A stretch of DNA of 23,140 bases from positions 1 to 23,140 of the IMG/VR virus record IMGVR_UViG_3300031629_000087; one strand, 5' to 3'. Shown in pieces: positions 1-23,140 of the stretch. The notes under the pieces are model-generated. The model was not told the DNA's origin, did no database searches, and saw only the letters and a program-made list of their open reading frames with translations. Made by a program: the position numbers and the translations under genes. The stretch comes from a virus. Every line of letters begins with the position of its first letter. Positions within the stretch are counted from its first letter, which is position 1.

Positions 1-5
1 TTGGA

Positions 6-728
6 ATGAGCCGTGGAGGCTCCGTTAGAGCAGAGTATAGTCCCGAAAGAATTAACTTGATGGCGCAAGAAATACTGGCCGAGGGATACTATGAAGGTGG
101 ATTAGTTGGCGGCGCAATTGAGCTAGGCGCTAGGGCACTAGGGTTCGGTCCCGAAAGGCAAGTAGCTATTACTAGAGAGGCGGCAGACCTAACCAATCAA
201 ATGGCGGACTTAGGTCTGATAGAAGATCGATCTAGAGTTGAAGTGGTATCCTCCAAGGATGAAAAAAATCCTACTCGACTAAACACAAATATTGAGGGCG
301 ACGAAGAGGTGTTCAACGCGGTAAATCACGCGCTGTTTGCTTACGATGCTGGGCAAAGCAAGATTACTCAAGCCGCAGCTCAAGCCAAAGAAGTCTATCA
401 AGGATTAAATGTAAAGCTAAGAGGTGGAGATCCTAAGTCAGAGTACCTAGATTACTTTAATAACAAATTTGGATTTAACCTTGCCGAGCAGGGATTGAGT
501 CGAGACGAAGCAAAATTAAAGATTATGGAAAGCCTTGGCAATATTGATGACGTTGGCCTAGCTGGGAAAATTATTCGCAATGAAGAATTGGTCGGAGGTG
601 AAGTCTTAGTAACAAATCCAGAGGATATAAATTACCCTTGGGCTGACGACTACGCAGAAGGAGGATTAGTAACTTACAATCCTGAACGAATTAATCGAAT
701 GGCTGAACTCATACTACAGGAAGCTTAA
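6..728 (+). CDS. Unknown phage protein with terminal GG/PERIN repeats (possibly 5'-partial)
   Basis: I do not recognise a function. The 240-residue product carries the same short module at both ends. At residues 4-17 it reads GGSV, three residues, then YSPERIN. At residues 219-230 it reads GGLV, one residue, then YNPERIN, followed in each case by an amphipathic helix (LMAQEILAE and RMAELILQE). A third GGLV sits at 31-34. The middle is mixed-charge and probably helical, with no signal peptide or membrane segment. The ATG at 6 lies five bases from the window edge with no in-frame stop before it, so the gene may start further upstream. It ends two bases before the portal start, and its last codons hold the portal ribosome-binding site. 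The location suggests a head-associated role, but that is inference only. Confidence 0.6.
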   Translation: MSRGGSVRAEYSPERINLMAQEILAEGYYEGGLVGGAIELGARALGFGPERQVAITREAADLTNQMADLGLIEDRSRVEVVSSKDEKNPTRLNTNIEGDEEVFNAVNHALFAYDAGQSKITQAAAQAKEVYQGLNVKLRGGDPKSEYLDYFNNKFGFNLAEQGLSRDEAKLKIMESLGNIDDVGLAGKIIRNEELVGGEVLVTNPEDINYPWADDYAEGGLVTYNPERINRMAELILQEA

Positions 729-729
729 C

Positions 730-3447
730 GTGGCTGATGAACTAGAAGTTGAAGTAGAACAAGAAATCACGATGGTAGAGATTCCAGAGGAAGAGCTGGA
801 CTTTGAAGACACCGAGGACGGCGGCGCTGTCGTCATGATGGAGAAGATCTCTGTCAGAGAAGCGTCCGATCACTTCGCCAACATTGTTGACGACGTTGAC
901 GCCTCGCTACTCAAGACCTCAATCAACGACTTGATGACTAAGATCGAGCGAGACAAGGAGGCCCGTCAGAAGAGAGATCTGCAATACGAAGAAGGGCTGA
1001 GACGTACTGGCCTCGGAGATGATGCGCCTGGTGGTGCTCAGTTCAGCGGAGCCAACAAGGTTGTTCATCCAATGCTTGTAGAGGCTTGCGTCGATTTCTC
1101 GGCTCGATTCATCAAGGAGATATTCCCGCCGACCGGCCCCGTAAAGTCTAAGATATTAGGCGAAGCGGACAAGGCTAAGGTTGGCAAGGCTCAGCGTAAG
1201 ACTGAGTTCATGAACTGGCAGACAACCGAGCAGATGGTCGAGTTCAGGTCCGAGCTTGAGCAGCTCAGCACCCAGCTACCACTGGGCGGCGGTCAGTACA
1301 TGAAGTTTATGTGGAACTCTAGATTCATGCGACCCACGTCTGAGTTTGTCCCAATTGACGACATCTACCTCCCATTCTCTGCGACCAACTTTTACACCGC
1401 CGAGCGAAAGACTCACGTACAGTACATCACCGAGATGGAGTACGAAAAGAGAGTCGAGGCCGGTATGTACGCCGACGTGGACCTTCCGTCTCCGACAGAG
1501 CCTACTTTCAGCGCGGCAGAGAGAGCTAACGAAAAAATCGAAGGAAAGCAGAATACCTCTTACAACGAGGACGGCCTGCGAACAATCTTTGAGATATACA
1601 CCTTCATGGACTTTGAAGACGGAGAAGGCTTAGCGCCATACATTCTTAGCGTCGATAAGTCTAGCGAGCTGCCGCTGTGCCTTTACCGAAACTGGGAAGA
1701 GGATGACGAAAGGCAGGCAGAGCTTCACTGGCTTGTTGAGTTCCCGTTCGTACCGTGGCGCGGCGCTTACCCTATCGGTCTGACGCACATGATCGGCGGA
1801 CTGAGCGGTGCCGCTACTGGAGCACTGAGAGCGTTGCTGGACTCCGCGTACATTCAGAACGTGCCAACTCTGCTCAAGCTAAAGGGCGGACCTAACGGTC
1901 AGACCCTTAACGTGCAGCCTACCGAGATTGTCGAGATGGAAGGCGGGGCGTTGATTGACGACGTTAGAAAGCTGGCTATGCCGCTACCGTTCGCAGGACC
2001 AAGCCCCACACTGTTTCAGTTGCTAGGATTTTTAGTTGACGCCGGAAAGGGCGTTGTCCAAACGTCTTTCGAGAAGTTCAACGATCAGAACCCTAATGCG
2101 CCAGTCGGCACAACGATGGCAATTATTGAGCAGGGAATGGTCGTGTTCAGCTCAATACACTCGCGCCTACACTCTTCGATGGCGAGAAGCTTTAACATCC
2201 TGCATCGCATCAACAGCATGTACTATACTGACGAAGAGCTGGATGCGCTCGACAACGGGCTAGAGATATCGGCAGAAGACTTTGACGGACCCGCAGACGT
2301 GGTCCCGATTAGCAACCCAGCCATCTTCAGTGAGGCGCAAAGATTCGCTCAGATACAGGCAATCATGGCCCGCGCTCAGGTTGTGCCGCAACTGTACGAT
2401 CCAATCGCTATCGAAGAAATGTTTCTGAGAACGCTAAAGGTTCCGGCTTCGGAAGTTATGGCACCAAAGGTTGGCGAAGAGGACAGAGATCCGGTAAGTG
2501 AGAACGTGGCTGCGGCTATGGGTCAGGGAATATACGTCCTGACTGAGCAGGATCACATGGCTCACTTGCAGGTCCACTTACCCTTCTTAAAGTCTCCGTT
2601 GTTTGGGTCTAATCCGGCCATCGCAAGCACGTTCTTGTACCCTATGTCAATGCATTTAAAGGATCATATCCTTAATTATTACTTGGCGGAGGCTCACAGC
2701 GCGGTTGATACAGCTCAGAGTGAAGGATTGATACCGGAGGAGGCTGAAGATCAAGTTCAGGTGATACTGCAGGTTCAACAGTTCATTGAAGAGCAGCTTG
2801 GATCTACCGGAATTGCTGAAGAGCTGGGCATGATTAATCAGGCCGCAGAACAGTTCAAGCCTCAAGACCCTGCAGCTCAGACAGGTGACGCGATGCAGAT
2901 TGCTCAGCTTAGTGCCGAGATAAAGCAAGGAGAACTCCAGCAGCGCACTGAGCGTGACGGCGCTAGGCTCCAGATTGATCAGGCTAAGATGCAGGCAGAT
3001 ATGCAGCTTGATCAAGCTAAGATTCAGATAGAGCAGGCCAAGATGGAAACCTCTATGCAGCGCGACGGAGCTAAGATCCAGATAGATCAAGCCAAGCTGG
3101 ACGCATCTACGCAGATTGCTCAGCTTAAAATGCAGCAGTCCTCGGAAATTGAGATGGCTAGGCTCGCGTCTCAAGAAGCTAATCGTCAACAAGACTCTGA
3201 GACTGCTGGGCTTCGTGAGCTGTCCGCGACAGAGAGAAATAACATTAGCGAGATGTCCGAGACAGACCGCATGAATACTCGCGAGCAGAACGAGAACGCT
3301 CGTAAAGCGGAAGACTTAGCGGCAAGAGAGCGCATGAATACTGCGGATAACATGACGGCCAAGGAGCTTGCAGCTCTTGAGGTCATTAGCGGCGAGAAGA
3401 CATCGCTCACAAACGGGAAGGGAATAGACCCTGGGGCTGACGTGTGA
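730..3447 (+). CDS. Portal protein with long C-terminal helical repeat
   Basis: The 905-residue product is the probable dodecameric portal at the capsid vertex, through which DNA is packaged and ejected. The acidic N-terminus is followed by a region (about 75-145) reading EEGLRRTGLGDDAPGGA then VVHPMLVEACVDFSARF, as I recall from portals of podovirus-like marine phages. The core (150-650) has the mixed alpha/beta character of the family. Residues 720-885 are a charged helix built partly from an 18-residue repeat, comparable in placement to the P22 portal barrel helix (P22 portal is 725 residues, so this one is long). Translation starts at GTG 730, with AGGA at 718-721 and no closer ATG. Its position ahead of the scaffold and capsid genes is typical. 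The family call is from sequence feel and context, without a search. Confidence 0.85.
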   Translation: MADELEVEVEQEITMVEIPEEELDFEDTEDGGAVVMMEKISVREASDHFANIVDDVDASLLKTSINDLMTKIERDKEARQKRDLQYEEGLRRTGLGDDAPGGAQFSGANKVVHPMLVEACVDFSARFIKEIFPPTGPVKSKILGEADKAKVGKAQRKTEFMNWQTTEQMVEFRSELEQLSTQLPLGGGQYMKFMWNSRFMRPTSEFVPIDDIYLPFSATNFYTAERKTHVQYITEMEYEKRVEAGMYADVDLPSPTEPTFSAAERANEKIEGKQNTSYNEDGLRTIFEIYTFMDFEDGEGLAPYILSVDKSSELPLCLYRNWEEDDERQAELHWLVEFPFVPWRGAYPIGLTHMIGGLSGAATGALRALLDSAYIQNVPTLLKLKGGPNGQTLNVQPTEIVEMEGGALIDDVRKLAMPLPFAGPSPTLFQLLGFLVDAGKGVVQTSFEKFNDQNPNAPVGTTMAIIEQGMVVFSSIHSRLHSSMARSFNILHRINSMYYTDEELDALDNGLEISAEDFDGPADVVPISNPAIFSEAQRFAQIQAIMARAQVVPQLYDPIAIEEMFLRTLKVPASEVMAPKVGEEDRDPVSENVAAAMGQGIYVLTEQDHMAHLQVHLPFLKSPLFGSNPAIASTFLYPMSMHLKDHILNYYLAEAHSAVDTAQSEGLIPEEAEDQVQVILQVQQFIEEQLGSTGIAEELGMINQAAEQFKPQDPAAQTGDAMQIAQLSAEIKQGELQQRTERDGARLQIDQAKMQADMQLDQAKIQIEQAKMETSMQRDGAKIQIDQAKLDASTQIAQLKMQQSSEIEMARLASQEANRQQDSETAGLRELSATERNNISEMSETDRMNTREQNENARKAEDLAARERMNTADNMTAKELAALEVISGEKTSLTNGKGIDPGADV
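2899..3168 (+). repeat. Five tandem 54-base (18-codon) repeats inside the portal gene
   Basis: Portal residues 724-813 form five consecutive 18-residue units starting IAQLSAE, RDGARLQIDQAK, LDQAKIQIEQAK, RDGAKIQIDQAK and IAQLKMQ. The central three match closely at protein level and less closely at DNA level because synonymous codons differ (for example gatcaggctaag versus gatcaagccaag). Eighteen residues equal five alpha-helical turns, so the unit predicts a straight helix. Confidence 0.85.
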
Positions 3448-3486
3448 TGAGTTCGTGTGATTGATAACTTCCACAAGGTAGGTGAG

Positions 3487-4011
3487 ATGGATATCACATC
3501 ATGGCTCACCAATGTGGATACACTAACCTCTAAGGTATGGGGTGAAGACTATTGGCGTCAAGAGACTTTCAGCGTACATCAAGACACGCAAACTGTACCA
3601 TTAGTGTTCGATAAGTATTTTGAGAAACCAATCAAGACAGAACACTACAAAATGTTTGAAACCAACCTGATGCCATTAGAGTCCTTGCTGTCAACACACT
3701 ATGGCAATGGCTTTACCGCACGATTGATACTGACTAAACTCAAACCGAAAGGTGTCATACCAGAACACCGAGACAATGGTGAGTGTTTTCAAGTATCACA
3801 CCGAGTACATCTGCCATTGATAACCAATGATGAGGTGTTGTTCAGTGTCGGTGAGGAAACTATCACTATGCAGCCTGGTGAGTTATGGGAAATCAACAAC
3901 ACCAACCGACCGCATCAAGTGGTAAACATGAGTGACAGTGAGCGTATACACTTAATAATAGACTGGGAACCATATAATGGCGTTTCTTCAGGGCAACATA
4001 CCGCACTTTAA
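3487..4011 (+). CDS. Aspartyl/asparaginyl beta-hydroxylase-like Fe(II)/2-oxoglutarate dioxygenase
   Basis: This is a probable non-heme iron, 2-oxoglutarate-dependent hydroxylase. With the ATG at 3487 as start (174 residues), the iron ligands are H94 and D96 in PEHRD, with the distal H143 in RPHQ. R153 in RIHLIIDW is placed to bind 2-oxoglutarate, and RVHLPL (106-111) matches the conserved core strand of the AspH (PF05118-type) family. A GTG at 3457 would add ten residues, but AAGG at 3475-3478 lies eight bases before the ATG. Such enzymes hydroxylate Asp/Asn or free amino acids; the substrate here is unknown. The gene sits between portal and capsid genes, so a virion protein or host translation factor could be a target. 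Its codon choice (cca, acc, cac) looks different from its neighbours, hinting at acquisition. The 3' end overlaps the next gene by 35 bases. Confidence 0.8.
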   Translation: MDITSWLTNVDTLTSKVWGEDYWRQETFSVHQDTQTVPLVFDKYFEKPIKTEHYKMFETNLMPLESLLSTHYGNGFTARLILTKLKPKGVIPEHRDNGECFQVSHRVHLPLITNDEVLFSVGEETITMQPGELWEINNTNRPHQVVNMSDSERIHLIIDWEPYNGVSSGQHTAL

Positions 4012-4657
4012 GTGCTGGGTCAGGAAGGAATACACTCACAACCATGAGAAGTATCATGGTGAGTTTATTCACGCGATGGCCGTAGCAGTAACGACACTGC
4101 CAAGCAGATGTCTAAGCTTTCAGATGATTTTTACGGGAGCTGAAACCTACGACACAGAGGAGCCGAATGTTCACGGCGGAGCTATGTGGGCGAGAATGCC
4201 TATAACAGCTCTGATGGGAGACACCGCTGTAGCGGAGTGGCCCGAGGCAATGGCTACGCACGACGCTCAACCGTGGGATTGTGCATCACGAACCCATAGC
4301 GTCTATGTCCTAGAGAGATGCTCGCCAAGTCCTTGGCTGGCAAAAATAGACGGAGAGTTCTATCCGGCTAAGTATTACTTCACGGTTGACTACACCGACT
4401 CAGAGATTGCAGACGATCCAGCTCAGCATAAGCAGGCGCACGTCTTGGAACTTCTAGACGCCGGAAAGTGGACTGGGAACATAGTGGCGCTACCAAACAA
4501 CCGCGTGAGGGTCAGTCACCCCGCTTGGTTTGAAATGGGCGAAGGCGCTCCTGACTTTAGACCGTCTCAGCATATCCATTACAGTAAATCTGACTTGGAT
4601 TACACGCTGGACGTTAATCGAGTTTTTGATAACTTATACGCGAGGGAAGAAGAATGA
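3977..4657 (+). CDS. Conserved phage protein of unknown function
   Basis: A 226-residue soluble protein. The N-terminal third has FIHAMAVAVTTLPSRCLSFQ then FTGAE, and about twenty residues on HGGAMWARMPITALMG. I recall this pattern from unassigned proteins beside the portal gene in marine phages, but I know no function. It has four cysteines, several conserved-looking Trp/His and no obvious catalytic motif. A role in head assembly is possible from position alone. It starts at ATG inside the 3' end of the dioxygenase gene (overlap 3977-4011) and ends with an ATGA overlap onto the next small gene, so it is probably translationally coupled on both sides. Confidence 0.65.
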   Translation: MAFLQGNIPHFKCWVRKEYTHNHEKYHGEFIHAMAVAVTTLPSRCLSFQMIFTGAETYDTEEPNVHGGAMWARMPITALMGDTAVAEWPEAMATHDAQPWDCASRTHSVYVLERCSPSPWLAKIDGEFYPAKYYFTVDYTDSEIADDPAQHKQAHVLELLDAGKWTGNIVALPNNRVRVSHPAWFEMGEGAPDFRPSQHIHYSKSDLDYTLDVNRVFDNLYAREEE

Positions 4658-4821
4658 GCACCAAGATGAAAACAAAAGGTTATTCCAAAGGCGGAAAGAT
4701 GAAGACTAAAGGCTATGCTAGAGGCGGATCGGTCAATATGGCTTCAGATGCAGTGCCTCAACATAAGCGAATGGCTGCAGGCATTACGATAAAGCAAGGC
4801 ACTAGCACCACTCAATCTTAA
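4654..4821 (+). CDS. 55-residue basic protein with duplicated KGY..GG motif
   Basis: Short gene read directly from the sequence: ATG at 4654 overlaps the previous stop (ATGA), and the stop TAA is at 4819-4821. The product begins MSTKMKTKGYSKGG and repeats KMKTKGYARGGSV, so residues 5-14 and 16-25 are near copies. The remainder is polar with HKRM and ends in STTQS. It is strongly basic and Lys/Gly-rich in the first half. The GY[SA][KR]GG tag recurs in the gene at 10392 and, in shorter form, at 6 and 9869. No function is known to me. Coding is supported by the overlap, the in-frame duplication and the related protein elsewhere in the window. Confidence 0.65.
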   Translation: MSTKMKTKGYSKGGKMKTKGYARGGSVNMASDAVPQHKRMAAGITIKQGTSTTQS

Positions 4822-4824
4822 AAA

Positions 4825-5022
4825 GTGAATACAGAATCTAAATTTCTGAACATCCTCAAGGCAGATCAAGCAGAGTTTGCGCTTGAAGCCTTGAGGAAAC
4901 CTCAGAAGCGCGATGGCTTCGAGTACGGCTATCGCGTTGGAATGGTTGCGGGTTATGAGGCAGCTATTGACGTGCTCTTAAATCTAATAGATGAGGATCA
5001 AAATGGAAATAACGACTTATGA
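4825..5022 (+). CDS. Small unknown phage protein
   Basis: A 65-residue protein beginning with GTG three bases after the preceding stop. No clear Shine-Dalgarno is visible, so reinitiation after the upstream gene is the likely entry route. It is helical in character: ADQAEFALEAL, then FEYGYRVGMVAGYEAAIDVL and an acidic end (LIDEDQNGNNDL). The FEYGYRVG..AGYEAA pattern resembles small unassigned proteins found beside phage co-chaperonin genes, as far as I recall. Its 3' end overlaps the start of the GroES-like gene and carries that gene's ribosome-binding site. Confidence 0.55.
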   Translation: MNTESKFLNILKADQAEFALEALRKPQKRDGFEYGYRVGMVAGYEAAIDVLLNLIDEDQNGNNDL

Positions 5023-5419
5023 GGACGCGCTCGCGGAGGCTTTCCCAGCAGTAGATGCTGGTATTCGGCCTTTCGGTAGCCGTGTTCTGATTCAGATACG
5101 CACCGCTAAAAGCAAGACTTCTGGCGGAATCATACTAACTAACGACACTACTGACACAGAGAAGTGGAATACTCAAGTTGGAAAGGTTGTTGCAGTTGGT
5201 CCGTTAGCTTTCAAGAATCGAAACACTATGGAAAGCTGGCCCGAAGGAGACTGGTGCAAAGAAGGCGATATGGTCAGAGTAGCCAAGTACGGTGGAGACA
5301 GGTGGGAAGTTGAGCTGTCTGAAGTAAAAGGCGATACCGCAATGTTTGTAATCTTTAATGACCTTGACATCATGGGGAGCGTTACAGGCGACCCTCTGAA
5401 GATCAAGGCTTTCATCTGA
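5003..5419 (+). CDS. GroES-like co-chaperonin (Cpn10)
   Basis: The product is the heptameric lid that cooperates with host GroEL. RPFGSRVLIQI (about residues 23-33) is the first strand, where GroES has its conserved RPL.DRV. KTSGGIILTND follows as the GroEL-binding mobile loop, matching the GroES ..SAGGI.L pattern. Further on are KVVAVGP, the GD-valine/leucine turn (EGDMVRVAKYGGD) and a C-terminal strand. At 138 residues it is longer than bacterial GroES (about 97), as with phage versions such as T4 gp31, which has the same task of folding the capsid protein. I choose ATG 5003 over ATG 4991 because GAGG at 4993-4996 lies six bases upstream. Its place between portal and scaffold/capsid suggests the capsid protein as the client. 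Confidence 0.88.
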   Translation: MEITTYEDALAEAFPAVDAGIRPFGSRVLIQIRTAKSKTSGGIILTNDTTDTEKWNTQVGKVVAVGPLAFKNRNTMESWPEGDWCKEGDMVRVAKYGGDRWEVELSEVKGDTAMFVIFNDLDIMGSVTGDPLKIKAFI

Positions 5420-7631: not shown

Positions 7632-8546
7632 ATGGCTACTCCAATGCGTAGTACGGACTTCCGTTCGGTAGTTGAGCCTATTCTCAACGAAGTATTTGAC
7701 GGAGTTTATGAGCAAAGAGCTGACGAATGGAAGGCGGTTTTCCGCGAGCAGAAAGGTATTCCACGCAACTATCATGAAGAACCCGTTCTTTATGGTTTTG
7801 GTGCGGCACCTGAGCTTCCAGACGGTATGGCTGTAACTTACCAATCAGGCGGCATCTTGTTTGTGCAGCGTTACCTTTACCACGTCTACGGCCTTGCGTT
7901 TGCATTGACCAAAGTCTTGGTTGAAGATGGCGATCACATCCGTATCGGTCAAACTTACGCTAAGCACTTGGCGCAATCTTTGATTGAAACGAAAGAGACG
8001 CTAACCGCTAACATCATGAACCGTGCGTTTAACGCAGCCTTTACAGGTGGTGACGGTGTTTCTTTGAGCAGCAATGCTCACCCGATTGTCAACGGAACCT
8101 TCAGCAACGTACTTAATGTCGCTGCTGCACTTTCTCAAACCTCTCTCGAGCAGATGCTCATTCAGATCCGCAACGCTGTTGACAACAACGGCAAGCGTAT
8201 CCGGTTGACTCCTACTCAGATTGTTACTGGCCCAAGCAATGTCTTCCAAGCGGAAACTCTGCTCAAGTCAGTTCTGAGAAGCGGAACTGCTGATAATGAC
8301 ATTAACGCTATTAAGTCAATGGGGCTTTTGGCGGACGGTCAAGCTAACCTTTCCCGTATTACTTCTACCACCGCTTGGTGGGTACAGACTGACGCGCCTG
8401 AAGGCTTAAAGCTTCTCATGCGTCGTGGTCTAGAGAAGTCTATGGAAGGCGACTTTGCGACTGACTCTATGCGCTACAAAGCGACAGAGCGTTACACTGT
8501 TGGTTGGACAGATCCTCGCGGTGTGTTCGGTACGGCTGGTGTCTAA
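7632..8546 (+). CDS. Major capsid protein (HK97-fold type)
   Basis: The 304-residue product is the probable shell protein. Evidence: the order scaffold, decoration, this gene, terminator; a helical N-terminal arm (VVEPILNEVFDGVYEQRADEW); a long spine-type helix region (HIRIGQTYAKHLAQSLIETKETLTANIMNRAF); and then NAHPIVNGTFSN with LSQTSLEQMLIQIRNAVDNNGKRI and LTPTQIVTGPSNVF. This last series is characteristic of Mu gpT-like/HK97-fold capsid proteins, in which the peptidase-free A-domain follows. It ends in YTVGWTDPRGVFG. No delta domain or cleavage site is obvious, in keeping with a separate scaffold. It has the best ribosome-binding site in the window and a strong terminator right behind it. 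Confidence 0.85.
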   Translation: MATPMRSTDFRSVVEPILNEVFDGVYEQRADEWKAVFREQKGIPRNYHEEPVLYGFGAAPELPDGMAVTYQSGGILFVQRYLYHVYGLAFALTKVLVEDGDHIRIGQTYAKHLAQSLIETKETLTANIMNRAFNAAFTGGDGVSLSSNAHPIVNGTFSNVLNVAAALSQTSLEQMLIQIRNAVDNNGKRIRLTPTQIVTGPSNVFQAETLLKSVLRSGTADNDINAIKSMGLLADGQANLSRITSTTAWWVQTDAPEGLKLLMRRGLEKSMEGDFATDSMRYKATERYTVGWTDPRGVFGTAGV

Positions 8547-11714: not shown

Positions 11715-12016
11715 GCGTTTACCTGAACCCTGAAGGCCAGCCAACATTTGGAGTTGCCATCTGTGCGAGGTGCTCTAGGAAGTTTTTGCTGGCCGAGCTG
11801 TCTCCTGACCCAAATTTTCCAGGGCTTATGGTTTGCTCAGTTGATAAGGATGAATACGACCCTTATTTACTGCCTCCACGCCGCCCAGATCAAATTGTTT
11901 TGCCCTTCAATCGGCCAGACACCAACATAGACACGCATCCCTCTGGAGTTATCCAAGAGGCTGGTGATGAATTTATTGTCACTGAAGACGGCAATAAGTT
12001 TTTGGAGATGGATTAA
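11711..12016 (+). CDS. Small zinc-ribbon-like protein downstream of the adaptor
   Basis: I place the start at GTG 11711, overlapping the adaptor stop (GTGA), giving 101 residues. An in-frame ATG at 11648 would lie wholly inside the adaptor gene. ICARCSRKF (about residues 18-26) is a zinc-knuckle-type CxxC, followed by LLAELSPDPNFPGLMVC and DEYDP. Related phage proteins carry two CxxC pairs with ...GL.VC..C.DP; here the second pair is reduced to one Cys, so metal binding may be lost or completed by Asp/His. The C-terminus is acidic (EFIVTEDGNKFLEMD). Its place directly behind the gp4-like adaptor is the usual one. The role is unknown, perhaps in head-tail joining. Confidence 0.65.
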   Translation: MSVYLNPEGQPTFGVAICARCSRKFLLAELSPDPNFPGLMVCSVDKDEYDPYLLPPRRPDQIVLPFNRPDTNIDTHPSGVIQEAGDEFIVTEDGNKFLEMD

Positions 12017-13689
12017 TGACCGTAGACGTTCCTAGTAATTTAATACCTAGCAGGGTAACTCAGTTACCCGTAGCTCCAGAGGCATCGCCTGACGGACTGC
12101 TTCTTTTTACTTATCAAGGCGTAAGCTATCAAGTCCGCGCGGGAGACTTGCTTCAAGTTGCAGGCGTTCCAACGACTCGACAAATTCTTGCCGGAACCGG
12201 CCTGACAGGCGGCGGATCGTTAGCCACTACCGTGACGCTAAGCGTTGCGAACGGAGGTATCGGGTCTACGCAACTAGCGACAAGCGGAGCTGCTGCAGGA
12301 ACTTATGGTAGCGGGACCGCTATTCCCGTTTTGACCGTAGACGCCACAGGGCGCATCACAGCGATAAGCTCTGTTGCGGCCACACTAACGGGCTATGTTC
12401 CTATAAGCCGCCAGATCATAGCCGGAGCAGGCTTAGAAGGCGGAGGTAACCTTAACGCTAACGTAACTTTGACCGCTGACTTTGAAGACACGGCACCTCT
12501 GGCGGGAACTACTAACGGCTCAGCGGGTACTTTAAACGAGCTTTCTAGGGGAGATCACCGGCACCCTCCTGTAGACCTCAGTAATCAAGATCAAATTGAC
12601 GGTACGCTGCCGATCGACCAAGGCGGCACCGGAAGGTCAAACACTAACACGCCAGGTGGCGTTGCTTACGGCGGCGGAAATGACATTAGCCTCAGTGTTG
12701 TAGGGCTTTCGGGGCAAGTGCTAGTTTCCGGCGGTGCCGGAGCGCCGACATGGGGGTCTGCTTTAATTGCGACCGATCAGCCGGCAAACTTGTTCTACGG
12801 AGGACCAGCGGCTGGAGCTGATGCTCCTACAGCCTTTAGGGCAATGGTCAACGCTGATCTTCCGGCTTCTGGCGTAACGGCTGGGACTTACGGTAGCTCA
12901 TCGTTAATACCCGTCGTTACTGTGGACGCCAAAGGCGTAGTAACCGGCGTTTCAACAACGTCTTTTCAGACAGGTTTAGACTTTCAAGGCACATGGAATG
13001 CGGCAACAAATACTCCCACTTTAGCTTCAGGAACGGGTACTTCGGGACATTATTACATTGTTGATGTAGCCGGCACGACTAATCTAGACGGTATAACCGA
13101 CTGGGCCGTGGGTGACTGGGCTGTATTTAGCGGCGCTGTCTGGCAGAAACTTGATCAGTCCAACACTGTTGTATCGGTGAACGGTCAGACAGGCGTTGTT
13201 GTCTTAACTGCGGCAAATGTGGGCGCAGCCGCAACTGACGGAACTGGCGCTACGGGAAATTGGAATATATCAATATCTGGAACGGCTGCAAGCGCAACTA
13301 CGGCTACGAGCGCAAACAACGTCGTTGGAGGAGCTGCCAATCGCATAGTATATAATACAGGCTCTGGGGCGAGTAATTTTTTAACAGCTCCCACAGTAAC
13401 TAACACCTTTTTAAAATGGAATGGCGCTGCTTTTGTTTGGACTTCCGCTGTTACTTCTGCGGTTGCAACTTTCAGCGCAGGAAGCACAGGGCTTACTCCA
13501 AGCTCAGGAGCTACCGGAGATGTAACCTTAGCTGGAACATTAGTTCGAGCAAACGGCGGGACAGGATTGACAGCGGCGGGGGCAAGCGGAAATGTTTTAA
13601 CCTCCGACGGCACAAATTGGACCTCGGCCACACCAGCGGTTGGAGTGACTACTGACGACGTGATTGCATTAGCGATTGCATTAGGATAG
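12016..13689 (+). CDS. Tail fibre-like repeat protein
   Basis: A 557-residue, Gly/Thr/Ala/Val-rich, cysteine-free elongated protein. Residues 1-50 look like a short conserved virion-attachment end. Internal duplications follow. RQILAGTGLTGGG (55-67) is repeated as RQIIAGAGLEGGG (132-144). AGTYGSGTAIPVLTVDA (94-110) is repeated as AGTYGSSSLIPVVTVDA (289-305). The fibre signature GDHRHP is at 179-184. NGQTGVVVLTAANVGA (389-404) is common in phage fibres. NGGTG...SGNVLTSDGTNWTS (513-537) is shared with the gene at 17062. The probable role is host-receptor contact or a fibre shaft. It starts in TAATG overlap with the preceding gene. Homotrimeric assembly is expected for the class but not shown. 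Confidence 0.8.
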   Translation: MTVDVPSNLIPSRVTQLPVAPEASPDGLLLFTYQGVSYQVRAGDLLQVAGVPTTRQILAGTGLTGGGSLATTVTLSVANGGIGSTQLATSGAAAGTYGSGTAIPVLTVDATGRITAISSVAATLTGYVPISRQIIAGAGLEGGGNLNANVTLTADFEDTAPLAGTTNGSAGTLNELSRGDHRHPPVDLSNQDQIDGTLPIDQGGTGRSNTNTPGGVAYGGGNDISLSVVGLSGQVLVSGGAGAPTWGSALIATDQPANLFYGGPAAGADAPTAFRAMVNADLPASGVTAGTYGSSSLIPVVTVDAKGVVTGVSTTSFQTGLDFQGTWNAATNTPTLASGTGTSGHYYIVDVAGTTNLDGITDWAVGDWAVFSGAVWQKLDQSNTVVSVNGQTGVVVLTAANVGAAATDGTGATGNWNISISGTAASATTATSANNVVGGAANRIVYNTGSGASNFLTAPTVTNTFLKWNGAAFVWTSAVTSAVATFSAGSTGLTPSSGATGDVTLAGTLVRANGGTGLTAAGASGNVLTSDGTNWTSATPAVGVTTDDVIALAIALG

Positions 13690-13698
13690 GAGAAATAA

Positions 13699-14031
13699 AT
13701 GGCTAACGTATTTGCACGAAAACTATCTACGGGAGTTGGCACCGCGTTGACGGCTGTAGGCGGTTATGTTGTTGGGTCTTCAACTCAAGCAACGGTGATC
13801 GGCTTAACCGTATCAAACACAACCGCTGCGCTAATAACTGTAGACGTAACATTAAATAACGGATCGGCTGACTTTTACTTAGTAAAAAACGCGCCCATTC
13901 CTCTTGGCGGCGCTCTCGTCCCTATTGGCGGAAACCAAAAAATAGTGCTTGTTACGGGAGATTCTATAAAGGTTAACTCAAGCTCTGCTTCTTCGATTGA
14001 TGCAGTGCTGAGCATTCTGGAGATAACATAA
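13699..14031 (+). CDS. Small beta-sandwich virion protein
   Basis: A 110-residue protein with regular alternating hydrophobic strands: GYVVGSSTQATVIGLTVSN, LITVDVTLNNG, FYLVKNAPIPLGG, KIVLVTGDSIKV and a final AVLSILEIT. No catalytic motif or cysteine is present. I recall small proteins of this pattern in fibre regions of marine phages, where they are listed as structural. It could form a collar or fibre-attachment layer. AGGAGA precedes ATG 13699, and its stop overlaps the next ATG (TAATG). Confidence 0.55.
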   Translation: MANVFARKLSTGVGTALTAVGGYVVGSSTQATVIGLTVSNTTAALITVDVTLNNGSADFYLVKNAPIPLGGALVPIGGNQKIVLVTGDSIKVNSSSASSIDAVLSILEIT

Positions 14032-14894
14032 TGTCTAATTCGTACATCGGCAATCAACCTTCAGACGTACCTCTGACATCGGAGCAGCTAGAACCTAATA
14101 TTGTCAATACTCAAAATATAGTTAACCTAGCCGTTACTACTTCAAAGATAGCACTCGACGCTGTAACGGGAGCACAGCTTGCCAACAATATTGATATTGC
14201 GGGAACGCTGGACGTTACAGGGCTGCTCACGGCAGATGCTGGGGTAACCGTAGTTGGTGCGCTTACCTTGGGCGGTACTGCTGTCACCTCCACAGCAGCA
14301 GAACTTAATATCCTTGATGGTGTGACGGCAACTGCCGCAGAAATTAATAGGTTAGACGGCGTTGCTAGTGTAATAAGAACGGCGGGGCTTGAAACTATCT
14401 ATGTGCCAGCCGCAGCGATATACCCAAACACAACTGCCGGCTCTGCCAATCTTGAGCAAATTGAGCTATCAAATGGGCCAGAGCTTAAATGTTTGGACTT
14501 TGACCCAAGCTCTGCTGAGAACGCTCAGTTTACTGTTGCGTTTCCAAAGTCTTGGAATGAGGGAACAGTTACTTTTCAGGCTTTTTGGACAGTAACTGGA
14601 ACTGACACTGGAACAGTTGCATGGGGATTAAGTGGTATATCCTTTGCAGATAATGCCAGTATTAACACTGCGTTTGGAACTCAAGTTGTAGCTACAGCTA
14701 AAGCATTTAGCGGTACGTCTAATAACATGACTGTGTCGGCAGTTAGTGGAGCGGTCACAATTCCTGGCGCGGCAGTAGACACGATGACATACTTTCAAAT
14801 CTCTAGAGATGTTTCAGCGGACACCCAAACTGGTGACGCTCGACTGCTTGGGATTAAGTTATTCTTCACCACTGATGCGGCAAATGACGGGTAG
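14031..14894 (+). CDS. Tail fibre-like protein with AAELN-LDGV repeats
   Basis: A 287-residue protein. The N-terminal part (1-85) is a repetitive shaft (IVNLAVTTSKIALDAVTGAQL, then IDIAGTLDVTGLLTADAGVT). At 89-111 are two copies of the phage fibre unit TAAE[LI]N.LDGV. The C-terminal domain (about 120-287) is different: YVPAAAIYPNT, GPELKCLDFDPSS, AFPKSWNEGTVTFQAFW and ARLLGIKLFFTTDAANDG. I recall this end as a widespread beta-rich domain in marine phage structural proteins. The likely role is host recognition or a fibre tip/hub. It is coupled to the preceding gene by TAATG. Confidence 0.72.
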   Translation: MSNSYIGNQPSDVPLTSEQLEPNIVNTQNIVNLAVTTSKIALDAVTGAQLANNIDIAGTLDVTGLLTADAGVTVVGALTLGGTAVTSTAAELNILDGVTATAAEINRLDGVASVIRTAGLETIYVPAAAIYPNTTAGSANLEQIELSNGPELKCLDFDPSSAENAQFTVAFPKSWNEGTVTFQAFWTVTGTDTGTVAWGLSGISFADNASINTAFGTQVVATAKAFSGTSNNMTVSAVSGAVTIPGAAVDTMTYFQISRDVSADTQTGDARLLGIKLFFTTDAANDG

Positions 14895-14903
14895 GAGCGA
14901 TAC

Positions 14904-15800
14904 ATGAGTTTTGGCTATAACGTACTTGGATTTGGTAGTCATCCTTCAAGAGGAGTCCCTTTAGCCGTGGAATGGTTATTGATTGCCGGCGGAGGAGCGT
15001 CTCATACGGGTGGCCCAGCAGGGGGTGGTGGTGGCGGAGGATATTTAACAGCAGTAACAGATGGAATTACACCCGCTACCAGCTTTTTTCCAGGCATAGC
15101 ATATACCGTGACTGTTGGTGCCGGTGGCGCTAATGGGGGAAATCCAGGCGTGGACTCGTCGGTAACAGGCGCAGGACTAACAACTATATTATCGATAGGT
15201 GGCGGGAGAGGTGGCGCGGGGCGTACCTTTTTCCCTTCTATTGGAGGCGCTGGCGGCGGAGGCGCTGGCGGGCAATCGGGCGGATACCCTTTTCCTCAAG
15301 CGGGCGCTGTTGGAACGGTTGGGCCTCCAAGACAAGGATATACTGGCGGCGCTGGGTATTTTGTAAATACTTACCAGAGTTATGTAGGGGGCGGCGGTGG
15401 CGGCGCTGGTGGCAATGGGGTGAGTTATGTGAATGCGTACTTTAGCTCGACAGGCGGTGGCGGCAGAAGCGGTAATGTTGACAGCGTAGGCCGAGGCGGC
15501 GGCGGCGGTGGCTCGGGCAATGATGCCTCGCGTGGCGGTGTAGGATCATCCGGCGGTGGAAGTGGAAATAGTTATTACTACAACCGTGGCAACCAAGCTG
15601 GATACGCCAACACGGGCGGTGGTGGCGGAGGTGGTGCCCAGACCGCGTATGCCCCGCCAAATCGCCCTGCACCCGGAGGATCAGGTATTGCTATTTTTAA
15701 ATACGAAGGAGGGACTAGGGCTACCGGAGGAACGATTACATTTGTATCGGGTTATACCTTACACACTTTTAATAGTTCAGGGACGTTTACACCCTTATGA
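14904..15800 (+). CDS. Polyglycine-rich fibre-tip adhesin-like protein
   Basis: A 298-residue protein dominated by glycine runs (up to seven in a row) between residues 29 and 255. VEWLLIAGGG at the front and YTVTVGAGG (about 67-75) are typical of the glycine-rich domain of phage fibre tips. The C-terminus GGSGIAIFKYEGG then LHTFNSSGTF is the closing strand pair of that domain. In structurally known relatives (for example the Salmonella phage S16 gp38 adhesin), such runs pack as polyglycine helices that display variable loops binding the receptor. Here the loops between runs are rich in Ser, Asn and Tyr. AGGAG precedes ATG 14904, and it ends by ATGA overlap with the next gene. Confidence 0.75.
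   Translation: MSFGYNVLGFGSHPSRGVPLAVEWLLIAGGGASHTGGPAGGGGGGGYLTAVTDGITPATSFFPGIAYTVTVGAGGANGGNPGVDSSVTGAGLTTILSIGGGRGGAGRTFFPSIGGAGGGGAGGQSGGYPFPQAGAVGTVGPPRQGYTGGAGYFVNTYQSYVGGGGGGAGGNGVSYVNAYFSSTGGGGRSGNVDSVGRGGGGGGSGNDASRGGVGSSGGGSGNSYYYNRGNQAGYANTGGGGGGGAQTAYAPPNRPAPGGSGIAIFKYEGGTRATGGTITFVSGYTLHTFNSSGTFTPL
15059..15076 (+). repeat. 18-base exact repeat shared by adhesin and sulfotransferase genes
   Basis: AGATGGAATTACACCCGC occurs here and again at 16949-16966. In both places it is read in the same frame and encodes DGITPA(T). It may mark past recombination or be chance. Confidence 0.6.
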
Positions 15801-16171
15801 GTCATTTTGCAAAAGTTGAAGACGGGATTGTTGTTAATGTCATTGTTGCGGAACAAGATTTTGTAAATAGTCTTGAAGGCGCATGGATTCAAACCTCATA
15901 TAATACTCATGGAAATGTCCATTTGGGGCAAGATGGAGAACCTGATGGAGGCATAGCTCTACGAAAAAACTTTGCGGGTCTTGGGTTTATTTATGACTCC
16001 ACAGCAGATGGTTTTCACAGCCCTAAGCCTTTTCCAAGCTGGAGCCTAAACTCTACAACTTTTGAGTGGGAACCTCCTGTCGAAAAACCAGATAACACTG
16101 TAGAAGGTTTTTATGAGTGGGATGAAGAGATAACAAATTGGGTATTCATAGAGACAGGTGATTTAAATTAA
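15797..16171 (+). CDS. Conserved phage protein in fibre region (MSHFAKV type)
   Basis: A 124-residue protein beginning MSHFAKVEDGIVVNVIVAEQ, then WIQTSYNTHGNVHLGQDG, then GGIALRKNFAGLGFIYD, then PKPFPSWSLNSTTFEWEPP. I recall this pattern from many cyanophage and other marine phage proteins encoded beside fibre genes, without a settled function. Length and place are compatible with a fibre-associated or fibre-chaperone protein. It starts in ATGA overlap with the adhesin gene, suggesting a functional link. Its last codons supply the ribosome-binding site for the downstream sulfotransferase. Confidence 0.65.
   Translation: MSHFAKVEDGIVVNVIVAEQDFVNSLEGAWIQTSYNTHGNVHLGQDGEPDGGIALRKNFAGLGFIYDSTADGFHSPKPFPSWSLNSTTFEWEPPVEKPDNTVEGFYEWDEEITNWVFIETGDLN
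16156..16169 (+). promoter_or_regulatory. Ribosome-binding site and ATT start of the sulfotransferase gene
   Basis: AGGTGA at 16156-16161 lies five bases before ATT at 16167-16169. In this frame there is a stop at 16164-16166 and no ATG, GTG or TTG until 16224, which is beyond the codons for the essential nucleotide-binding loop. The ATT overlaps the TAA stop of the previous gene (16169-16171). This is the best-supported entry point. Confidence 0.6.
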
Positions 16172-17000
16172 ATCATTCGATCAACTTGTATGTTTAAGCG
16201 GTCTTCCAAGAACAGGCAGTACCTTGTTGTCTAGCTTGTTATCACAAAACCCGACTATACATTCAGAAGGTTATTCTGGGCTGTGTGAACTTATGTGGCA
16301 GACTGAAAAAACTTGTGAATCTATAAAGCACATATTTGCTTCAAACAATAGATTGCACACCTCAAAGGATATTATTTCTCAACTGCCTCACTCTTATTAT
16401 AAAAACAATAGTTCGCAAGAAAAAATTGTTGTTGATAAATCTAGGTCGTGGACAAATTCAGACTGTTCTTCTTTGCTTGATGATTTTGTCGGCGATGATA
16501 TTAAAATAATTGTTATGGTTCGCCCTATTGTTGAAATTTGTAAATCCTTAGTAAGGATATTTAAAAGTAATGGAATTTATACAGAGCAGCGTGAAAAAGA
16601 CCTATTTGAAGAGATAATAATACAGCCATTAACCGGAGTACAGGTTGCAAGGGAAAGTAACAGCAATCGTTTTATATTTGTTTCGTATCAGGACTTGGTG
16701 GAAAACACTTCGCAAACATTAAAAAGAATTTATAGTTTTTGCGGCTGGCCTCCGTTTATACATAACACAAACAATGTAGATACAAAGTATGTTGAAAGAG
16801 ATGATTTTTATCGCCTAAAAGGTATGCAAGTTGATGGCTTAAAAGGTATGCACGATGTAAGAAAAAAAATTGAATATCGTAGTAACGATACGGTGTTAAT
16901 GGATAGAACAATAAGAATATGTGAGGGCTTAGAAACAGGGTCTTTAAGAGATGGAATTACACCCGCAACACTACCCGATTTAATATTGGAGAACTTTTAA
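16167..17000 (+). CDS. Sulfotransferase family protein (ATT start proposed)
   Basis: The product is a probable PAPS-dependent sulfotransferase of 277 residues when started at ATT 16167. SGLPRTGSTLLSSLL (11-25) is the 5'-phosphosulfate-binding loop. VRPIVEICKSLVR (about 118-130) has the Arg-x7-Ser pair (R119, S127) expected for 3'-phosphate binding. FIFVSYQDLVENTSQTLKRI and YSFCGWPPF are typical later elements. A TTG start at 16224 would remove the loop. The substrate is unknown: a glycan, lipid or virion sugar. The gene is visibly richer in A/T and in aaa, aat, tta codons than its fibre neighbours, consistent with acquisition by transfer. It interrupts the fibre cassette, so modification of a surface receptor or fibre is a reasonable guess. 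Confidence 0.82.
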   Translation: MKSFDQLVCLSGLPRTGSTLLSSLLSQNPTIHSEGYSGLCELMWQTEKTCESIKHIFASNNRLHTSKDIISQLPHSYYKNNSSQEKIVVDKSRSWTNSDCSSLLDDFVGDDIKIIVMVRPIVEICKSLVRIFKSNGIYTEQREKDLFEEIIIQPLTGVQVARESNSNRFIFVSYQDLVENTSQTLKRIYSFCGWPPFIHNTNNVDTKYVERDDFYRLKGMQVDGLKGMHDVRKKIEYRSNDTVLMDRTIRICEGLETGSLRDGITPATLPDLILENF

Positions 17001-17061
17001 ATGACTATGGTTTTTAGGAAAACCCATACAATAACTTTATTTTTTATGCGCGGAGGCTGAA

Positions 17062-17757
17062 ATGGCTGAGACAGGATTTACACCAATACAATTGTATCGA
17101 ACTGCGACTGCTTCAGCCGTACCCGTTGCTGGAAAGTTGGCAGACGGCGAGTTAGCGATAAACACAAACGACGGAAAGTTATTCTACAAGAACTCTTCCG
17201 GCGTAGTCACTCAGATGGCGTCTGCAGGCAGCGGAACGGGAACAGTTAGCTCTGTTTCTGGGGCAGGCACTGTTAACGGAATAACGCTAACCGGAACCGT
17301 CACGACATCAGGAAGCCTGACTCTCGGAGGAACATTAGCTAACGTCAATCTGACGAGCCAAGTTACCGGCACTCTTCCTGCGGCCAACGGAGGCACCGGA
17401 CTAGCTGCCCCAGGAACTTCAGGAAACGTGCTCACCTCCGACGGAACCAACTGGACTTCCTCCTCATCCTCGACAGTCGGCGCGTACAATTTGTGGCTTG
17501 TAAAAACCTCTGCTTATACCGCTGTAACTGGGGATCAAATAATAGCTAACAACGCCACTGCGTTTACTATTACACTTCCTGCAAGCCCATCTGTAGGCGA
17601 TACAGTTGTATTAGTTAATGCCCCAGGGGGCGGATTATTGACGGTCGATCGGAACGGACATAACATCAACTCAACGGCTGCGAACGGTGAGCTTAGCGCA
17701 GAACAGAGCAGCCAGCTTGTCTACGTTTCAGTTGCTGTCGGGTTCTTACAAATTTAA
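17062..17757 (+). CDS. Tail fibre-like protein
   Basis: A 231-residue protein. Residues 1-53 contain TPIQLYRTATASAVP and GELAINTNDGKLFYKNSSG, the widespread ELAIN..DGKLFYK start of phage fibre/appendage proteins. The middle is a Gly/Thr/Ser-rich shaft with GTVNGITLTGTVTTSGSLTL, followed by NGGTG...SGNVLTSDGTNWTS (109-133), which is shared with the gene at 12016. The end (145-231) is a compact beta module (FTITLPASPSVGDTVVLVN ... LLTVDRNGHNI) related to three modules in the gene at 19095. GGAGG at 17052-17056 gives a good ribosome-binding site for ATG 17062. The 61-base gap before it holds nothing else convincing. Confidence 0.75.
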   Translation: MAETGFTPIQLYRTATASAVPVAGKLADGELAINTNDGKLFYKNSSGVVTQMASAGSGTGTVSSVSGAGTVNGITLTGTVTTSGSLTLGGTLANVNLTSQVTGTLPAANGGTGLAAPGTSGNVLTSDGTNWTSSSSSTVGAYNLWLVKTSAYTAVTGDQIIANNATAFTITLPASPSVGDTVVLVNAPGGGLLTVDRNGHNINSTAANGELSAEQSSQLVYVSVAVGFLQI

Positions 17758-17769
17758 AGGAGTTTCAAG

Positions 17770-18114
17770 ATGGCCGTAATATTAGGGTCAAGTCCGATAA
17801 AGTCTATTCAGAGAGGTCAAATGACTATGTCTATACAAGGCAGCTCTGGAATAGGGCAGGATTCCACCGCCACAATTAACTCGGTAGACGTTACAAAATC
17901 TTTTATTAGCGCAAGCTGTAACAGCGCAGCAGGTTTCTCCACGTCATCCGGTGCATCGGGCGCTTCACTGGGAACCGGAACGCCGACTGCAGGGGTCAAG
18001 CTAACCAGCGCCACAACACTACTGGCAACTTTAGGGAATGTTCCGTTCGCTGGAACTGCCCCGCAATCCTTGTCAACGGGTGTTCTTTACTTTGAGGTTA
18101 TAGAGTATGTCTAA
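17770..18114 (+). CDS. Small virion structural protein (IKSIQRG type)
   Basis: A 114-residue, Ser/Thr/Gly-rich protein. It starts MAVILGSSPIKSIQRGQMTM, continues STATINSVDVTKSFISASC with a Ser/Gly/Ala-rich centre, and ends TGVLYFEVIEYV. The IKSIQRG start followed by a strand carrying TATI..V...KSF is a pattern I recall from small structural proteins in marine phage tail regions. A small beta-sandwich that caps or decorates fibres is possible. AAAGGAG before ATG 17770 is a good ribosome-binding site. The last eight bases overlap the next gene. Confidence 0.55.
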   Translation: MAVILGSSPIKSIQRGQMTMSIQGSSGIGQDSTATINSVDVTKSFISASCNSAAGFSTSSGASGASLGTGTPTAGVKLTSATTLLATLGNVPFAGTAPQSLSTGVLYFEVIEYV

Positions 18115-18466
18115 TATAAATTACGCAGTAATAGATGAAGGCGGAGTCTGTGAAAGAATTCTAGGATATGAGCAAACTTTAAACGCCGTACCTCATAACT
18201 ACATATCAATTCCTACATTTGATCTATCTTATGTCGGTCGAACTTGGAGCGGCTCCGAGTGGAGCGAAGTCGTAGTCTCAACTCCTACCGAAGAAGAAGC
18301 GGCAAGAACGTGGCGAGATAAAGAGCTTTTTGAATCAGACTGGATTGCAAACTTAAACGATCATCCGCAAAATTCTGACTATATAAGCTATAGAGTTTTG
18401 CTCCGAGACTGGCCTTCTACAGCAGGCTTTCCTGCAACTAAACCTACAAGCCCCGCCTCGTCATGA
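18107..18466 (+). CDS. Tail fibre assembly chaperone-like protein
   Basis: A 119-residue protein. The N-terminal half (YAVIDEGGVCERILGYEQ, then YVGRTWSGSEW) is a small beta domain. The C-terminal half reads ARTWRDKELFESDWIANLNDH, then YRVLLRDWPSTAGFP, which is the RD..L..(S/T)DW ... YR..LRD.P signature of phage tail assembly chaperones (Phage_tail_APC type). Such proteins help fold or attach fibres and are normally encoded directly after a fibre gene, as here. It overlaps the upstream gene by eight bases and the downstream gene by ATGA. Confidence 0.75.
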   Translation: MSNINYAVIDEGGVCERILGYEQTLNAVPHNYISIPTFDLSYVGRTWSGSEWSEVVVSTPTEEEAARTWRDKELFESDWIANLNDHPQNSDYISYRVLLRDWPSTAGFPATKPTSPASS

Positions 18467-22471: not shown

Positions 22472-22707
22472 GTGTAACGGTAACGCTTCCAATCGGGATC
22501 GGTCTTCAAGACTGGGCTGACTGCTTGATTACTGACTTTTCTAGCTCAGGCGCTTTCTATCCGCTGTATGACCCAGAAAAGTGGCAAGACTGGGCCTCTC
22601 AGTACAATAGAGCGAGCAACCTAATAGAAGACTTCCCAGATCCTTACAGCTACGCTGTAGAAGACTGGAGAGAGTGGGCGCAGCGGTTTGTGCAGACTAC
22701 GCTATGA
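22468..22707 (+). CDS. Small Trp-rich unknown phage protein
   Basis: A 79-residue acidic protein with six tryptophans, mostly in W-A/D pairs: LQDWADCLI, KWQDWASQYN, EDWREWAQRF. Two or three short amphipathic helices are likely, with no signal peptide. The start codon overlaps the preceding stop (ATGA), and its own stop overlaps the next start the same way, so it is probably translated in a coupled series with the stabilisation protein and the acetyltransferase-like gene. I recall similar short Trp-rich genes at this position in marine phages but know no function. Confidence 0.55.
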   Translation: MSVTVTLPIGIGLQDWADCLITDFSSSGAFYPLYDPEKWQDWASQYNRASNLIEDFPDPYSYAVEDWREWAQRFVQTTL

Positions 22708-23140
22708 GATACATTGGCTATCAAGACGAAGAAAAGGCTGAAAAGTGGGCCAGCAAAAAGCTAGGCGTTAAGGGCGGTCCTGAATTATTCAGAGCCTTGT
22801 CTGCGGTTAATGACGAAGGTCAATATTGCTGCGTAATACTGTTGACAAACTTTAGTCCTAGAAACATTGATATAAATATTGTCGTTGACGGAACGCTAAC
22901 GCCAAAAAACACTGTATTAATGTTCAACGGACTTTTCAGGATGGTGTTCGATCAGCTCAAGGCTGTTCGCGCTACGGCGCTAGTAGCTCAATCAAATACA
23001 CCATGTCAGTCGTTGGTCACTACGGCTGGCTTTGTAAAGGAAGGAGTGATGAGAAAGGCGTATGATGATGACGAAGACATGGTCATTTACAGCATTTTAG
23101 ATAACGAATACCGCGAGCATAATTGGTTTAGGGGCGTCAA
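22704..23140 (+). CDS. GNAT acetyltransferase-like protein (3'-partial)
   Basis: An open frame from ATG 22704 (ATGA overlap) runs to the window end without a stop, giving 145 codons plus two bases. It begins MRYIGYQDEEKAEKW. The core reads GLFRMVFDQLKAVRATALV, then NTPCQSLVTTAGFVKEGVMRKA, then DMVIYSILDNEYREHNW. The F...F..L...R..A.V...N ... GF..EG..R pattern is that of GNAT N-acyltransferases resembling ribosomal-protein acetyltransferases. GNAT-like genes are often found beside phage tail genes. The acceptor is unknown. The strict Q/R-x-x-G-x-G/A acetyl-CoA motif is not clear, so catalytic competence is uncertain. Confidence 0.68.
   Translation, partial: MRYIGYQDEEKAEKWASKKLGVKGGPELFRALSAVNDEGQYCCVILLTNFSPRNIDINIVVDGTLTPKNTVLMFNGLFRMVFDQLKAVRATALVAQSNTPCQSLVTTAGFVKEGVMRKAYDDDEDMVIYSILDNEYREHNWFRGV

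Follow-up and report, generated by a model that had tools for sequence, protein, structure and literature searches.

Genes of the PF05118 (AspH) type are already known in phages; the pairing of such a gene with a sulfotransferase or a GNAT acetyltransferase is the new part of the present analysis. Two PF05118-type genes are reported from P-HM1 and P-HM2 in the cited passages of PMC3037559, an AspH-type protein belongs to the core proteins of the pelagimyophages in those of PMC7029224, and ORF8 of Limnohabitans phage DC33 is annotated as AspH in those of PMC12195039. These annotations carry the same Pfam name as the hydroxylase studied here, and the passages cited mention no partner enzyme. The DC33 protein is a direct relative of the one studied here (31% identity). 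A search of open-licence PMC papers found no report of a pairing of this hydroxylase with a sulfotransferase or a GNAT.

The window, by which we mean the whole stretch of DNA analysed, is a complete IMG/VR record of 23,140 bases and represents a phage genome fragment. Contigs matching it at 99.98-100% identity were found in sample 3300031660 (L002, over positions 1-3755 and adding 2,169 bases upstream; L090, over 15390-22726) and in sample 3300031658 (L091, over 11921-20064). The gene order is that of late phage genes: portal, hydroxylase, a phrog_3704 gene, GroES and capsid, followed by tail and fibre genes. The features discussed below are as follows.

730..3447, + strand: portal gene (phrog_1216, E 2e-16), upstream flank of the insertion site
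3457..4011, + strand: AspH-like Fe(II)/2OG hydroxylase gene (PF05118), probable GTG start, 184 aa
3766..3774, + strand: HxD metal motif, H94 (95/95 aligned rows) and D96 (94/95)
3802..3804, + strand: R106, conserved in the family (95/95)
3913..3915, + strand: distal metal histidine H143 (93/93)
3943..3945, + strand: R153, presumed 2-oxoglutarate ligand (93/93)
3977..4657, + strand: phrog_3704 gene, downstream flank of the insertion site, overlapping the hydroxylase gene by 35 nt
4991-5419: GroES gene
7632-8546: capsid gene
14904..15800, + strand: gene for a glycine-rich protein (PF21722, phrog_2295), candidate substrate
15797..16171, + strand: phrog_7759 gene, whose relative in L110 lies between sulfotransferase and hydroxylase
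16167..17000, + strand: PAPS-type sulfotransferase gene (PF13469, PF00685), proposed partner
22674..23138, + strand: GNAT-like gene (phrog_4470, E 1.9e-16), cut by the end of the record

The portal protein is closest to that of Caulobacter phage RW (50% identity). The GroES co-chaperonin gene lies close to the head genes; Caulobacter phage RW, MW202545 and HTVC023P likewise have an annotated GroES.

The hydroxylase was first delimited as an open frame at 3487-4011, with 174 codons and a stop. Alignment showed that close relatives have about 10 extra N-terminal residues. Because the family profile aligns to the window from position 3460, the relatives share this N-terminal segment and the frame is open back to a GTG at 3457, the gene probably spans 3457-4011 and encodes 184 aa, the ATG at 3487 being internal. 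Residue numbers are nevertheless counted from that ATG. The protein matched PF05118 (Asp_Arg_Hydrox) with an E value of 3.8e-15 and 56.5 bits, against a curated cut-off of 22.6, and with the phrog_1216 portal and phrog_3704 genes on its flanks this bears out the preliminary description, which had placed an AspH-like hydroxylase between portal and head genes. The three motifs in which that description had seen all the iron and 2-oxoglutarate ligands, H94-R-D96, R-P-H143 and R153-I-H155, are present, and the ligands are nearly invariant across an alignment of 96 hydroxylase loci, which includes near-duplicates and, as L001 and L002, the phage of the window itself; counts are over rows with a letter at the position. 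H108 was also kept in 95/95 rows. The role of R153 is presumably the one it has in the PF05118 family. Together with the predicted fold described below, the kept ligands are consistent with an active enzyme, as had been proposed.

A different codon choice had also been noted there and taken to suggest an acquired gene. The codon deviation is real but not special to this gene: the mean codon preference z is -3.4 for the hydroxylase and -5.9 for the portal gene, and the codon chi-square is 4.6 versus 17.7 for the portal, 8.3 for the sulfotransferase and 7.2 for the capsid gene, so that codon bias is weak as proof of transfer. Acquisition is supported instead by empty sites. In three relatives with portals 60-73% identical to that of the window, the distance from the portal stop to the phrog_3704 start is 23 nt (L178), 24 nt (L179) or 65 nt (L193), with no hydroxylase between them. 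Therefore, the hydroxylase gene is cargo between the portal and phrog_3704 genes. A fourth relative, L180 (portal 74% identical), has a gap of 364 nt that holds other small frames and no hydroxylase, and this may be a hotspot for cargo genes; one of the small frames in this gap, upstream of position 5001, is cysteine-rich. The remaining 76 of the 80 phrog_3704 loci were uninformative on the site, having either no portal found or a distant one (30-34%) elsewhere. The hydroxylase was found in none of nine records searched whole (L178, L179, L193 and L180, which are fragments, and Caulobacter phage RW, MW202545, CRP-902, HTVC023P and HTVC027P), in a search run without a positive control. An origin in a host genome was also considered, and a scan of genome contigs with query A1 returned 75 stretches and no relatives.

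The phrog_3704 neighbour was considered as a partner enzyme and set aside, as it has no Pfam match or convincing PDB match and occurs without the hydroxylase in relatives. A Pfam search of the window protein at E 0.01 gave no match, and a PDB search with a profile of five members gave a best E value of 0.84, which is unconvincing. The family, with members in the window, L169, L006, L170 and L171, matched 108 phage records, and among the 30 listed, 23 bear the name PurM (phosphoribosylaminoimidazole synthetase) or ferredoxin. Its proteins, about 209-227 aa long, are shorter than true PurM; the cyanophage auxiliary gene name purM may be a misnomer for this family.

The sulfotransferase gene of the window lies 12 kb from the hydroxylase gene, in a separate cluster. 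Its product matched PF13469 (E 3.8e-14, 53.9 bits, cut-off 27) and PF00685 (E 2.2e-11, 44.1 bits, cut-off 22), and the frame is intact with the N-terminal motif in frame. No ATG, GTG or TTG precedes that motif, and a candidate start, ATT at 16167, overlaps the stop of the preceding gene. In other phages a relative of this gene stands next to the hydroxylase: sulfotransferases located immediately upstream of the hydroxylase in L012 (L331), L017/L018 and L122 are 35-37% identical to it (compared for L012, L018 and L122). The one in L110 is 42% identical and opens a run of sulfotransferase, phrog_7759 and hydroxylase genes, each homologous to a gene of the window, with a phrog_2295 gene upstream. 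In the window, too, the phrog_7759 and phrog_2295 genes adjoin the sulfotransferase gene. The GNAT-like gene at the end of the window, which matches the Pfam GNAT family only below its cut-off, was tried as the partner and rejected, since at E 1e-3 it is not matched by the profile of the partner GNATs.

To this sulfotransferase group belong the 80 best of 109 relatives found by a scan with window-type hydroxylases; near-duplicates are included, and some contigs stand under two or more locus numbers (for example L010/L282, L012/L152/L331 and L017/L130). In-house profiles found a sulfotransferase in 37 of these 80 loci, at a distance of at most 2.5 kb in 33 and of at most 100 nt in 21, the last figure being perhaps slightly low as small gene overlaps were scored as 900 nt. 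When the scan was started from the sulfotransferase, 11 of the best 80 of 110 loci contained the hydroxylase, a count biased by the query. The neighbouring sulfotransferases belong to PF13469 and PF00685 in some loci and to PF03567 in others, and since the families differ, a single common substrate is not obvious. The iterated profile S2 broadened to more sulfotransferase types, and its sequences were inspected; PF03567 backs its matches in L266, L275, L285 and L318, and not in L271 and L303. A distance of 3.3-4.3 kb separates sulfotransferase and hydroxylase in L271, L273 and L303, and Pfam at E 1e-3 did not confirm it in L271 and L303.

Several arrangements are notable. Two PF03567 sulfotransferases flank the hydroxylase in L177 and L318, and by profile or BLAST two sulfotransferases also flank it in L317, L010 and L011, in the last two of which the contig end truncates the upstream gene. 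APS kinase makes the sulfate donor, and a gene with an APS kinase domain lies within 2.7 kb together with sulfotransferase and hydroxylase in L332. An APS kinase is found within two genes of the hydroxylase in 3 of the 42 clusters defined below (L271, L303 and L332), and nine of the 42 cluster records have one, six of them farther away than two genes. In L012, positions 3081-5236 carry three consecutive genes, for a sulfotransferase, for the AspH-like hydroxylase and for another oxygenase (PF13640), and L321 is a short contig with two hydroxylase-profile matches about 600 bases apart.

Five contigs (L258-L262) carry sulfotransferase and hydroxylase fused in one uninterrupted frame, which is complete in four and cut by the contig end in one. 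From ATG the frame encodes 419 aa in four of them; the L260 and L262 proteins are the same, and L258, L259 and L260 are 89-94% identical. The N-terminal part is a sulfotransferase, with a PF13469 match of E 5.7e-14 in the 423-codon frame of L260, on which Pfam was run; the other fusions are at least 89% identical. Comparison of this domain with the window-type sulfotransferases by hhalign was weak (probability 16.5%), and a structure model of the fusion is poor there, the N-terminal half being mostly below pLDDT 60; the assignment rests on Pfam and motifs. The hydroxylase part, at the C-terminus, shares 41-43% identity with the window protein.

The second group of relatives pairs the hydroxylase with a GNAT. 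Scanning with four phage proteins yielded 384 relatives, and among the best 80, which include near-duplicates, a GNAT starts within 100 nt downstream of the hydroxylase in 65, while in 8, from four clusters, the two are fused in a single frame. The partner GNAT is a phrog_1249 acetyltransferase in both of the loci scanned (L007 and L008). PF00583 was found above its curated cut-off (20.7 bits) in five of nine partner GNATs or fusions scanned (L007, L034, L049, L021 and L030) and was below it or absent in L008, L056, L057 and L024. In DC33 (L007, PQ492659.1) the pair sits between the terminase and a portal-type gene; L083, L034, L081, L021, L056 and L032 have a similar size pattern, and a tally of 49 neighbours around the pair is consistent with this layout (phrog_332 in 7, phrog_2 terminase in 6). 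DC33 and Pseudomonas fluorescens phage PfAn1 are cultured phages of this GNAT type. The GenBank lineage of DC33 is Inoviridae, yet terminase and portal-type genes are present and, in the cited passages of PMC12195039, the phage has a tail by microscopy.

We propose that hydroxylase and transferase act in sequence on one substrate, the phage of the window having the sulfotransferase version, and put the probability of this reading at about 0.5. The Fe(II)/2-oxoglutarate hydroxylase would put a hydroxyl group on the substrate, and the phage sulfotransferase would then move sulfate from PAPS onto the new hydroxyl; in phages of the sister group this second step would fall to a GNAT acetyltransferase. 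A hydroxyl is a natural acceptor for sulfotransferases and enzymes that catalyse successive steps are often fused, and for these reasons we infer a common substrate with hydroxylation coming first. GNATs mostly acetylate amines, and the acetyl version would need either an O-acetylating GNAT or an amine close to the new hydroxyl. Against the proposal stand this preference for amines, the 12-kb distance between the two genes in the window, the clusters with neither partner and the weak clustering of the sulfotransferase label described below, and the differing sulfotransferase families. A narrower form of the proposal, that phages carry a two-enzyme kit for a new kind of protein modification, in which a residue of a phage or host protein is hydroxylated and then sulfated (one group of phages) or acetylated (the other), sometimes by one fused enzyme, is tentative and, as we judge it, rather unlikely; in this form the added sulfate or acetate might also act as leaving group in a later elimination or cross-link.

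An alternative, in line with the preliminary description, is that the hydroxylase alone modifies an Asp, Asn or Pro of a virion protein, the transferases acting at other sites and the genes lying together because cargo pools in the gaps of late operons. The insertion of the hydroxylase as cargo in a head operon fits this alternative, as do the other small frames in the L180 gap and the position of the GNAT-type pair, which is flanked by terminase and portal-type genes in DC33 and, judging from gene sizes and the neighbour tally, in other clusters as well. Grouped at 60% identity, 162 hydroxylase loci gave 42 clusters. The cluster representatives had a sulfotransferase in 13 cases (that of the window at 12 kb), a GNAT in 12 and both in none, and 17 of the 42 had neither within the available stretch of sequence. 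In a maximum-likelihood tree a single change divides the GNAT from the sulfotransferase clusters, and the latter fall in a branch of 28 rows with support of 95/99. With the partnerless clusters counted, label shuffling gave no value as low as that observed for GNAT (0/500), which is thus clustered, and 24/500 for the sulfotransferase, which is weakly clustered. Over whole records, the sulfotransferase side of the tree had matches to PF13469 or PF03567 at E ≤1e-3 in 14 of its 26 records (11 of the 14 above the family cut-off), the other side in 0 of 16 (Fisher p 1.9e-4); this 2-by-2 test was set up after the tree had been seen, and support is weak for the root split and for the placement of L013. 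The two kinds of fusion in one frame and the lack of mixed clusters (0/42) exceed what random pooling of cargo would give, and argue against an enzyme acting alone.

The neighbourhood counts bear on the same alternative from both sides. Among 143 proteins encoded within two genes of the hydroxylase (of 144 such neighbours, a 1235 aa protein of L019 being left out), Pfam found PF00583 in 6, APS kinase in 3, Sulfotransfer_2 in 4, Sulfotransfer_1 in 4 and Sulfotransfer_3 in 2. At five or more genes away (147 proteins), Sulfotransfer_1 and Sulfotransfer_3 were found in 2 each, and GNAT, Sulfotransfer_2 and APS kinase were absent from the first 25 families; this drop in sulfotransferase and GNAT counts speaks against mere pooling. 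Gene calling preferred frames matched by the hydroxylase, GNAT or sulfotransferase profiles, equally near and far. PF13640 oxygenases occur in 7 of the 143 near and 6 of the 147 far proteins, and as other 2OG oxygenases are equally common close by and farther off, the regions are cargo-rich, which favours the alternative. None of 80 control loci fetched with phrog_3704, which are close relatives of one another and shorter (median 6.4 kb), matched the sulfotransferase or GNAT profiles, and no hydroxylase hit in them reached 60 bits; 10 of these loci gave weak matches to the hydroxylase profile, at 19-26 bits. On balance we consider it unlikely that the hydroxylase acts alone.

The nature of the substrate leads to the next alternative, in which the substrate of the enzyme, like that of L-proline cis-4-hydroxylase, is a free amino acid or some other small molecule, which the transferase then conjugates. 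An AlphaFold2 model of the hydroxylase, built with 36 sequences (pLDDT 88.8, pTM 0.85), is a compact single domain with a predicted 2OG oxygenase fold. Among PDB structures it comes closest to human AspH (Z 14.2), in a tie with a nucleoside-antibiotic hydroxylase (7v4m, 13.7), L-proline cis-4-hydroxylase (13.6) and proline 3-hydroxylase (13.5), and with Z scores tied at 13.5-14.2 the fold cannot separate a protein from a small-molecule substrate. Human AspH (PF05118) shares the fold with an rmsd of 2.8 over 147 residues, and the distal His and the Arg of the family are present in the window protein. The two are only 15% identical, however; the single domain of the window protein aligns only to the oxygenase part of AspH, whose TPR domain is absent from the 184-aa protein, and it has an HxD metal motif unlike AspH, in which the carboxylate metal ligand is missing. 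In sequence, a single PDB entry matched with E below 0.01, the L-proline cis-4-hydroxylase 4p7w (E 5.1e-5), which has the HRD motif in common with the window protein, at 19% identity and with a longer chain, and this match favours a small molecule. So do the polyketide synthase sulfotransferase domains 4gox (E 5.2e-5) and CurM (E 9.7e-4), the PDB entries that the profile of the partner sulfotransferases matched best. CurM sulfates a hydroxyl that a different domain of its assembly line has produced, and neither CurM nor 4gox is known to have a PF05118 oxygenase attached. Against a small molecule stands the position of the genes among virion genes in the window and many relatives, which suggests late expression together with structural proteins; no biosynthetic operon was noticed around them, and we regard this alternative as improbable. 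That the enzyme and its partners change a lipid or polysaccharide of the host envelope, for example to block superinfection, is very unlikely: LpxO, the lipid A hydroxylase, belongs to PF05118, sugars are frequent substrates of these sulfotransferase families and a neighbour in L010 matches phrog_3347, named Galactose-3-O-sulfotransferase, but LpxO is membrane-bound, in contrast to the compact single domain modelled here.

Returning to the proposed two-step reaction, its likeliest substrate seems to be a tail or surface protein of the phage or a molecule of the host surface that is produced late in infection. Tail or virion genes are found in the vicinity of the pair in several sulfotransferase-group loci. 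Distant relatives are found between uvsX and gp41 in the cyanophages S-SM2 and Bellamy, and near a primosomal gene in Itty13; as these lie among replication genes, a general virion reading is weakened. Collagen-like Gly-X-Y repeats of tail proteins were considered as a substrate and rejected, as none was found in the proteins of the window; the longest Gly-X-Y run, of 5 units, sits in the glycine-rich protein and is not collagen-like.

PF05118 relatives are spread over hundreds of environmental phage contigs (384 relatives), and no phage function is assigned to them in the cited passages of the works above. The mass shifts to be expected are +16 Da for the hydroxyl, +96 Da for hydroxyl and sulfate and +58 Da for hydroxyl and acetyl, and the fused protein could be expressed whole. 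The pairing, the fusions and the nearby APS kinase thus make of a vague annotation a testable two-step reaction.
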